Source: Paracoccaceae bacterium
GTDB taxonomy: Bacteria > Pseudomonadota > Alphaproteobacteria > Rhodobacterales > Rhodobacteraceae
Assembly: GCA_026710155.1 (NCBI GenBank)
Contig: JAPORQ010000063.1
Coordinates: 1 to 51,273 of the forward strand
Direction: 5' to 3'
DNA: 51,273 bases
Made by a program: the position numbers and the translations under genes
The notes under the pieces: generated by a model
What the model saw: the letters and a program-made list of their open reading frames with translations, nothing else
The model's database searches: none
Told to the model about the DNA's origin: nothing
Part shown: in pieces, positions 3,513 through 29,605 of the stretch
How the letters are laid out: each line of letters starts with the position of its first letter
Position numbering within the stretch: position 1 is the first letter of the stretch

Positions 3513-4517
3513 TCAGGCTGACCTTTCCTTTAAACCTTTCAATCGGTCTTTAACCAGTTGATCTCCCTTTTCAGATCCATCATGGAAAGTTCCAAACCAT
3601 TTATCCAAAGGTATCGAACCATCCGCATAATTCACTTCAAAATATTTGTGATGGAGATAATGGGCAAAACAATGGGTTTCCAATAATTTCCTGTCTCCAA
3701 CGATAACCTTGTCAAAACCTGCATGCCCTGGCGTCGGGGACATGACAAGATGAACCAGATGGAATAAGGCATGGACTGGATGGGATGGAATGATCCAGTG
3801 GATTATTACACCTGAAAAATAAAACAGGTGCTCAACTGGGTGCATCGATAATCCTGACCAAGGGCCGGGGTTTGAATTGGCATGATGTATTTTATGCACG
3901 GTGCGATATAGCGGAGGCCAATGGATTAGCCTGTGAATGCAATAGAAATGCATTTCCCTGAAGAGGGGAAGAAACAAAAATATTGCAAAAAACAGGATTG
4001 GATTTGTGTCAAGGTTCAAATATGGAATGTATCCATTGGACATCATCCACAAGGTAATGACTTCAAAGGCAGTCCAGATCGGCAATCCACTGGCAAAACA
4101 CCAGATCAAATTATCAGTTGTCTGATTTTTGAACAGGAAGGCTGAACTATCAGTTTCCGGCCATTTGGGGTTGTACTTGAAAGCTGTTCCCTGATTCCTT
4201 CGAACATACAGCCAAAGATGAAACACACCATACCACAAAGTCAATAATACGCTGTTTCTAATGGCTATGTAAGCAATCCAATCTATGGAAAAGGATTTCA
4301 TGGTTTCCATTGGGGGTGTAAAGTAGGTCCAAACGAGAATTGCTGCCAAAGCATAAATGAAATTCCAGGGAAAGATGTAACCATCCCAACGAAAGAGCCA
4401 TTTGAAGAGTTGTATGGGTTTTGAGGGCCAACGGAAGAAAGGACCATAATCGACCCTCTTGAACGGTCTCCAATGACCCTTTTTATCTCTTTTGCCAAAA
4501 TGATTTTCAATAACCAT
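3513..4517 (-). CDS. Fatty acid hydroxylase / sterol desaturase family membrane protein
   Basis: This is a 334-residue integral membrane di-iron oxygenase of the fatty acid hydroxylase superfamily. The histidine clusters that bind the metals are visible: HFYCIHRLIH (about residue 206), HKIHH (about 224), HPVEH, and HYLHHKYFEVNY near 300. Several hydrophobic segments precede and separate them, for example WNFIYALAAILVWTYF and ILFFAIFLFLPLF. Members hydroxylate or desaturate lipids, sterols or carotenoids. The substrate cannot be told from sequence, and no lipid-biosynthesis neighbour helps. It converges on tRNA-Cys and appears monocistronic. Confidence 0.9.
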   Translation of the reverse strand: MVIENHFGKRDKKGHWRPFKRVDYGPFFRWPSKPIQLFKWLFRWDGYIFPWNFIYALAAILVWTYFTPPMETMKSFSIDWIAYIAIRNSVLLTLWYGVFHLWLYVRRNQGTAFKYNPKWPETDSSAFLFKNQTTDNLIWCFASGLPIWTAFEVITLWMMSNGYIPYLNLDTNPILFFAIFLFLPLFREMHFYCIHRLIHWPPLYRTVHKIHHANSNPGPWSGLSMHPVEHLFYFSGVIIHWIIPSHPVHALFHLVHLVMSPTPGHAGFDKVIVGDRKLLETHCFAHYLHHKYFEVNYADGSIPLDKWFGTFHDGSEKGDQLVKDRLKGLKERSA

Positions 4518-4735
4518 GAATATTTGTTTCCAAATAAATTATAACATCCAGAAAACTAATCAGGATTCTGATAATGGCATTAGATATTTTGAGTCTTCAT
4601 ACTTAAACTCATACAAGATTATACCTTATTCCAAGGCACTTTCAATCCCATGTCAAAAGTTAATTGGTGTGGATTATACGCTTGATGACTTCCTGGATCT
4701 TTGAAACCACTGAATCTGAAAAAGCAATAACACAA

Positions 4736-5297
4736 TTAGTGTTTGTGACAAGAGTAGGTTTCTTTGTGTAAGGTCGATTTAGCGTCATAAAACTCATAAT
4801 AAGCCCCGGAATCATCTCTGATATAAAAAGAATATTGTTCAGCAGGTGCATCTTGTCCATACCAACGCCAAACCCTCAATTCCGAATAAGGTTGTAATTG
4901 TTGGGAATTATATACTTGATTGAATTTCCCATTTACCGAAAATACAACAGGTGTTCAGACACCGCGGGGGAATACAACTGCACTCCAGGGGAATGTGTGT
5001 GGTAGGTTTTTTCACAAAATCGCCGGAAAACCAGCGATGCCTCCACAAAAAAATAGGGAAATTCAATCAAGTATATAATTCCCTAATTGTTGGAAGTTCC
5101 TAGATTTTGCTGCTGCCAATTCCATCTTCGAGATTTAAGACAAGCTCTATTGGGTGTGGATGTGATGATGATCCCCACCAGTCAGAACATCCCCAAAGTT
5201 CGGATTTTGCTGGCATGGCTATTGTGATCACAACAAAGAATGCCAAAGTATAATAAAGGCTACGAATCGCAATAGATTTTATAATAAATTCCTTCAC
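4736..5297 (-). pseudogene. Small secreted protein gene split by a MITE
   Basis: The 5' part (5297-5100) encodes a signal peptide (LYYTLAFFVVITIAMPAKS) and a short mature region ending SSHPHPIELVLNLEDG before a TAG. Removing the MITE at 4903-5083 and one 8-bp target copy gives a continuous frame on its far side (NFQQLQPYSELRVWRWYG through STLHKETYSCHKH) ending at TAA, 4736-4738. The two parts differ by one base, and dropping one base of the four-base A-tract (T4 at 5105-5108 on the plus strand) joins them into about 123 residues. I do not recognise the family. The gene is broken twice: by the insertion and by the frameshift, which may be decay or a sequencing error. Confidence 0.75.
4903..5083. 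mobile_element. 181-bp MITE, probably IS1595-mobilised
   Basis: It has perfect 28-bp terminal inverted repeats (4903-4930 and 5056-5083; outer bases GGGAATTATATACTTGATTG). It is flanked by identical 8-bp TAATTGTT copies at 4895-4902 and 5084-5091. The 125-bp core has no open frame. Perfect ends and target duplication indicate recent movement. The TATACTTG core of the ends recurs at 28227-28441 and beside an IS1595 transposase fragment near 29600. IS1595 elements are known for 8-bp duplications. Confidence 0.93.
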
Positions 5298-5706
5298 TAA
5301 ACTAAAACCTGATAAATAATCTGATATAACATTGAATTGAGATAAATTCAGGGTGTCAAGCGTATATAACCCCAGGACTATCGCGCTTGAAATTTCAGAT
5401 ATGTTTTTGTATCAAAATTAATCCTTTATGGGGTTGTTCAGGAGTGAAATTGGTATCAAATCCTTGTTTTGAGATAAGTTACATTAAATTGGGCATTAAA
5501 TTTACATGATTTTCTGAGAATCCCTTCAAATCATTTCGACCTATTCTCAAATGCGGTAGCCCTGATATAACCACCTAGTCGGTTTAAAGTATTGTTATTA
5601 TGGTTTTTAATCCCATTCAGATTGTAAAAAATTACCATTTCGATACTGGCTAGAGTAGGCAATATATACCTTGTAATTTCGGAATTTAATTCCTAAAATA
5701 GAAGAT
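5298..5706. other. Intergenic, no gene seen
   Basis: This AT-rich stretch separates the broken secreted-protein gene from the ATPase gene. I see no open frame with coding character, no RNA gene and no strong hairpin. It presumably carries the promoters of the two divergent genes. Confidence 0.5.
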
Positions 5707-28725: not shown

Positions 28726-29382
28726 TCAGCTGCCGTCGACTGTATACCTGAAGTCGCACCACCGCGCAAACGGCTCCCAGACCGCAGCCTCTGCTTCCAC
28801 TGTGGGCCATTCGGCTGGCGCACAGCCCGGCCCCGGTCTGAAGGTCGCGCTGTAGCCGGTTCGGAATTGACCATAATTGTTGACTGCGGCGCAACCAAGT
28901 TCAACCGTCCACAATGCCCCGCCCCCTGGCGTGACCTTGCCATTGGGTCCGAAGGTGTTGCATACGGAGATGGTGTTGTCGTAGACCTTGCCATACACCC
29001 GGACGGTGAGGGTGATTGTGTTTCCTGTCAGCTCCCAGTTGTTGGGCCAGGATGATCCCTCGCCCGTAATATATCCACCGCACTGCCGCCCGATCGGGCC
29101 ATTCGTGTACGGGCTGTTGACAACATAGTCGACCTGCTGCGGGCGCGGGTTGCGGACATACTTCCGCTTCTCAACCCCGTCCTCTATAACCGTTTGCCAG
29201 CTGCCGCCGGTCGATGCTTCATAGGCACACCGACCCGTCTTGCCATCCACCCCGGCCATGCCGCCATCCACCCAACCAATGATCTCGGTTTCGAGGCCGC
29301 CACCTGCCGCACCGGTCGTCACACTGCCGCCGGAGAACAGGCTCCGACCTTGTGGCAGATTTGCCGGGTTCACGGTTGGAAT
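28726..29382 (-). pseudogene. Cysteine-containing secreted-type protein, 5'-truncated
   Basis: I do not recognise the family. The frame is GC-rich and protein-like, with spaced cysteines (GRCAYEAS, RQCGGYITG, SVCNTFGP, LGCAAVN, GPGCAPAE, RWCDFRY) and beta-type segments such as NTITLTVRVYGKVYDNTI. The open frame runs up to 29529, but beyond 29383 it is antisense to a transposase fragment, so the true 5' end and signal peptide are probably lost. Downstream, in another frame, a hydrophobic stretch (GVPVLATALVAIGLAV) ends at 28585 and resembles a C-terminal membrane anchor. The gene thus looks broken at both ends. Confidence 0.5.
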
Positions 29383-29605
29383 GGAACCTTCCACCACTTC
29401 ACCCCGAAGCACATGAACAGATACATCAACGAATTCGTCACCCGCCACAACATCCGCAGGCAGGACACCATCGTCATTATGGGGGACACGGTCGGCCTGA
29501 TGGTCGGGAAGCGATTGACCTGCAAACAACTTGTCGGAGGTTGAAATGGCGGAAAATCAGGGTTCTGATGATTTAAAAATCGCATAATCAAGTATGTAAT
29601 CTCGT
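29383..29605 (+). pseudogene. IS1595-family transposase C-terminal fragment and end
   Basis: The coding part 29383-29544 reads GTFHHFTPKHMNRYINEF, RHNIRRQDTIVIMGDTV and MVGKRLTCKQL, the usual C-terminus of IS1595 transposases. About 40 bases later, ATAATCAAGTATGTAATCTC (29585-29604) resembles the inverted end of the MITEs here, reading GATTACATACTTGATTAT in reverse complement. The rest of the transposase is absent. This links the MITE family to an IS1595 source. Confidence 0.75.

Follow-up and report, generated by a model that had tools for sequence, protein, structure and literature searches.

Introduction

The founding paper of the IS1595 family is reportedly that of Siguier et al. 2009. 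Elements of this family are described, in the available parts of two sources, as having 8-bp duplications, ends that start with GG and a DDE_Tnp_IS1595 domain (PMC8101967, PMC12561309). One described MITE belongs to the IS1595-family element ISHwa6 of Haloquadratum walsbyi: it is 165 bp long, occurs in 7 copies, and has 25-bp ends and 8-bp repeats (PMC3852290). The MITE reported here resembles it, as far as that description extends, in being short, in its 8-bp duplications and in its assignment to a resident IS1595-family IS. Ends that begin GGGG and A/T-rich 8-bp duplications are likewise seen in the account of ISApl4, also of the IS1595 family; unlike our element, ISApl4 is autonomous, with 712 bp and 14-bp ends (PMC12561309). 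A third system, MITEAba12, is also short and non-coding, has only its ends in common with its candidate parent ISs and lies at A/T-rich targets, but the available text gives it a different partner (ISAba12), 9-bp duplications and another end sequence (PMC6382973). The same source defines the type I MITE as an internal deletion of an IS.

Here we analysed a stretch of 51,273 nucleotides from Paracoccaceae bacterium (contig JAPORQ010000063.1), hereafter the window. The host of the ISHwa6 MITE is archaeal, unlike this bacterium. A preliminary description of the window had reported a short element with inverted ends, and had proposed that it be folded and that its end and its empty sites be looked for in the genome and in relatives. 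In the literature on IS1595 elements with MITEs, within the text available to us and with ISfinder outside the comparison, we recognised no description of this MITE family, and the accessible portions of PMC7371123 and PMC9208149 contain nothing further on MITEs of IS1595 elements. Within the reach of these searches, the family is new as a sequence but of a known kind. It combines a clean, recently active MITE family with MITE-free homologous sites and a candidate partner IS resident in its genome. It is useful for annotating draft genomes of the genus and is otherwise ordinary; more unusual are its surroundings, in which IS1595 elements have methyltransferase or restriction-modification genes as passengers and a small-protein cassette is repeated.

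Structure of the element and its copies

The element occupies positions 4903-5083 of the window and is 181 bp long. Its left (4903-4930, plus strand) and right (5056-5083, minus strand) terminal inverted repeats, delimited from the sequence, an end-pattern search and an end comparison, are 28 bp each and are exact reverse complements with 0 mismatches. The 8-bp target-site duplication TAATTGTT lies on either side, at 4895-4902 and 5084-5091, as read from the window sequence and the printed flanks; the structure at 4895-5091 is thus exactly that of the preliminary description. Between the ends is a 125-bp non-coding interior (4931-5055), which the genome search and the copy alignment found to be conserved among copies. 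No open reading frame (ORF) of at least 80 aa overlaps the element. We found that the 197 bases of element and duplications, treated as a DNA strand, fold to -41.8 kcal/mol, far more stably than shuffled sequences (mean -19.0 kcal/mol; z -7.2; 0 of 200 shuffles equally good). The window element, short, lacking coding capacity and bounded by perfect terminal inverted repeats, is a non-coding MITE.

The MITE is dispersed through its own draft genome (G000; 3.13 Mb, 83 contigs) as at least 18 distinct copies or fragments, a lower bound because only 40 of 64 first-look candidates were scored. With up to 3 mismatches allowed, the 28-bp end occurs at 32 genome sites, 16 forward and 16 reverse, including two that are IS ends (on contigs C10 and C2); the reversed-pattern control gave 0 sites, and we therefore conclude that the repeat is not due to chance. 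Of the 17 copies for which flanks were printed, 14 were delimited at the true ends of the element. Perfect 8-bp duplications flank 11 of these 14; their sequence differs from site to site, and 80 of their 88 bases are A or T (hand count). Copies L009, L012 and L013 have true ends but no perfect duplication. For L014 and L016 the match stopped before the ends, and no perfect duplication was seen by eye; L017 reaches the end of its contig. In the eighteenth copy, C51:43058-43229, which contains an N run, the flanks match by eye at 7 of 8 positions. A rough ORF scan of 16 copies found no overlap with an ORF of at least 120 aa, a result that does not prove intergenic sites, since an interrupted gene could fall below that length.

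Age of the copies and distribution of the family

We aligned 16 of the 18 copies; the two omitted are the fragment C2:18358, which lies at a contig end, and the copy with the N run. With gaps ignored, the window copy is identical to that at C70:124, differs by 1 substitution from three copies and by 5 from two more, and is separated from the remaining nine by 17-30 substitutions. With six copies separated from it by 0-5 substitutions, some movement is recent, and the alignment thus records a recent burst superimposed on older lineages.

The preliminary description had drawn recency from the perfect symmetry of the ends. Recent movement is supported by the seven near-identical copies (the window copy included); the symmetry itself is not evidence for it. 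In 12 of the 16 aligned copies there are 0 mismatches between the copy's own two ends, and four of the symmetric copies (L009, L010, L012 and L015) have accumulated 18-24 substitutions relative to the window copy, so end symmetry alone provides no clock. At end position 12, each of the 12 symmetric copies has the same base in its two arms, either A or C, and the four diverged copies just named carry the C variant in both. Perfect ends in diverged copies would reflect either source lineages with constrained ends and recent insertions or homogenisation of the arms.

Beyond its own genome, the MITE was found in none of the 60 other genomes searched, 8 of them of the same genus, so that the proposed search of relatives yielded no further copy. 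Likewise, the plasmid and phage collections gave no match to it (distant mode, E≤0.01). When 101 genomes were searched for a 23-base end pattern with 1 mismatch, it was found in the genome of origin and otherwise at one site, in G061. Transposases like that of the candidate partner described below are present in 31 of the 101 genomes, the own genome included, with a best-scoring outside match of 53% identity, and 375 plasmid records carry a relative, each below 60% identity.

A candidate partner IS

The preliminary description did not recognise the family by name. We found that it can be named as IS1595-dependent, on the basis of an IS on another contig of the same genome, C10:2776-5152 (L031, G000:C10). 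This IS is 2,377 bp long and is flanked by the 8-bp duplication TATATTTT, equal in length to that of the MITE. Its 324-aa transposase matches NF033547 (IS1595 family, E 2.2e-54) and covers positions 3-153 of the 153 of the PF12762 profile; a zinc ribbon (PF12760) is also present. When the seven transposases retained by a motif and length filter are aligned, the C10 residues D147, N247 and E250 prove invariant, and the second catalytic D is not in the columns that pass 90%. The MITE ends, like those of the IS1595 family, begin with GG, and they agree with the right end of C10:2776-5152 at 25 of 28 positions and with its left end at 21. For the three other IS1595 elements in which paired ends and a duplication were found, one end each was compared and matches at 18 (C51), 17 (C64) and 13 (C11) of the 28. 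A derivative of the C10 element that lacks the transposase, C2:16195-16911, has the same ends as that element and its own duplication TTAAATTT; the two further genome sites with an end related to that of the MITE are the right ends of C10:2776-5152 and of this derivative.

The resemblance is confined to the ends. The genome-wide search with the MITE returned C10 at 25 end bases only, and the interior (4931-5055) had no match in this search to the part of C10 inside the IS ends. The MITE therefore did not arise from C10 by simple internal deletion, and it lacks the IS-derived interior of a type I MITE.

From these comparisons we consider it very probable that the MITE depends for its mobility on an IS1595-family DDE transposase acting in trans, with C10:2776-5152 or a close relative as the likeliest source. 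Such a transposase would recognise the 28-bp ends of the MITE, on which the C10 enzyme may itself act, and would cut or copy the 181-bp unit. The unit would then enter an A/T-rich target with a putative 8-bp stagger, giving rise to the 8-bp duplication. The enzyme would be supplied by C10:2776-5152, or by a close relative that is now lost or unassembled, and movement may be continuing.

It is less probable, although it overlaps with the wider form of this explanation, that the MITE belongs to the IS1595 group while its true partner is a lost or unassembled IS with exact ends, C10 being a cousin. The MITE end departs from the right end of C10 at 3 and from its left end at 7 of the 28 positions, the interiors are unrelated, and at least three other IS1595 elements with different ends reside in the genome. 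PF12762 has 16 matches there, some of which are pieces of one element; paired ends were sought within about 1.5 kb on each side of the other transposases, and most yielded none. Within that distance of a transposase, the 83 contigs yielded no IS whose 28-bp end matches exactly, and a better partner may be hidden, given the draft state of the genome and the reach of the end search. Against a different partner, the C10 ends are the closest found in the genome, and the 23-base pattern has only its single G061 site in the 100 other genomes.

The insertion site

According to the preliminary description, the MITE had inserted inside a secreted-protein gene. It does lie within a gene-like region: the remains of a gene for a small, probably secreted protein (4736-5297, minus strand; limits set by eye against the C18 and G005-C45 frames) are interrupted by it. 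The frame is disrupted independently of the MITE as well, and the region belongs to a repeated cassette. We found that the flanks of the insertion align with MITE-free copies on contigs C82 and C18 of the same genome and on C45 and C44 of a congener, G005. These homologous copies, two in the own genome and two in the congener, provide the empty sites that had been sought, and they may occupy other chromosomal loci. C18 and G005-C45 contain an uninterrupted 127-codon frame with a hydrophobic N-terminus (by eye), which matches no Pfam family above cut-off; the protein of which the window holds the gene remains is thus about 127 aa long in homologues.

A recent knock-out of a working secreted-protein gene would fit the position of the MITE and the uninterrupted frame in two of the four MITE-free homologues. 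We consider it improbable: an 11-column gap is common to the window copy and to MITE-free C82, whose frame is split, and is absent from C18 and both G005 copies. Unless this gap arose twice, the break in the gene most likely predates the MITE. G005-C44, without the gap, is likewise split, which suggests that decay of this gene is common.

All five copies of the cassette sit between IS1595-like inverted ends, of the GGATTATACGCTTGATGA type here and of the GGGGATTATATACTTGAATA type in G005, as judged by loose patterns that were picked after alignment of the copies and run without a control. In the window, the GGATTATACGCTTGATGA-type end lies on one side at approximately 4669-4690 (plus strand) and a GGGGTTATATACGCTTGA-type end on the opposite side at approximately 5352-5373 (minus strand). 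Given this placement, the gene looks like the cargo of a cassette without a transposase. With the gene probably broken beforehand and enclosed by IS1595-like ends of its own, it is probable that no function was lost through the insertion and that the MITE has little effect in its cassette. A gene between IS-like ends, without a transposase, constitutes a mobile insertion cassette, a class that the small-protein cassette resembles, its target duplication not being established here. The term is used in the available part of PMC5444012. The cassette is repeated in two species of the genus (window 4669-5373; L075, L076, L077 and L078). The DNA past it (window 5373-5566) is itself repeated at G000:C83:28041-28231 and C1:1673-1862, with 72-73% identity.

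We regard it as highly improbable that the MITE is no transposable element at all but a structured RNA or a REP/BIME- or ERIC-like dispersed palindromic sequence. The strong fold, the conserved interior and two terminator-like minus-strand hairpins inside the element (against 0.3 in shuffles) would suit such a reading, but the 8-bp duplications of different sequence at each site, the MITE-free homologous sites, the IS-like ends, the lack of an Rfam match at E≤1 and the scarcity of covariation (a term of +0.97, with double changes at five pairs, of which three belong to the terminal arms) all argue against it. The Rfam search that led us to reject a structured RNA covered window 4500-5500 at E≤1. 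A promoter was rejected as well, with 0 sigma-70-like sites in 4880-5110 against a shuffle mean of 0.7. The 2 minus-strand terminator-like sites noted above were predicted in this same interval, against a shuffle mean of 0.3.

Other IS1595 elements and their cargo

C10:2776-5152 carries, on the opposite strand, an N6/N4 DNA methyltransferase-HNH passenger. A poly-G tract marks a split in the frame of this passenger, which could reflect phase variation, decay or an assembly error. A second IS1595-family element, L033:91-2414 (G000:C11), has matching ends and the duplication AAAAAAGA, and its cargo, a D12 adenine methyltransferase and a PD-(D/E)XK nuclease, is a probable restriction-modification pair. 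A third, L041:714-2496 (G000:C51), with the duplication TAAATTAT, holds a copy of the MITE inside it. We tentatively raise the possibility, which we regard as rather unlikely, that IS1595-type ends serve in this genus as a general cassette system, in which related transposases would move ISs, MITEs, the DNA-methyltransferase and restriction-modification modules of C10 and C11 and a family of small secreted-protein cassettes, all mutually nested, and in which the arms of the MITE evolve in concert.

A 23-base IS1595-like tip, GGGRATTATATACTTGACTGAAT, is present at L054:4622, L055:3354 and L056:242, in three Alphaproteobacteria MAGs, and at L120:1021, in a viral contig. By blastn, the three MAG stretches match the MITE or C10 over 23-30 end bases only, two of the three loci being cut close to the match; in the viral stretch, one end of this type alone is present when up to 5 mismatches are allowed. 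Within the window itself, positions 29350-29565 hold a remnant of an IS1595-family transposase.
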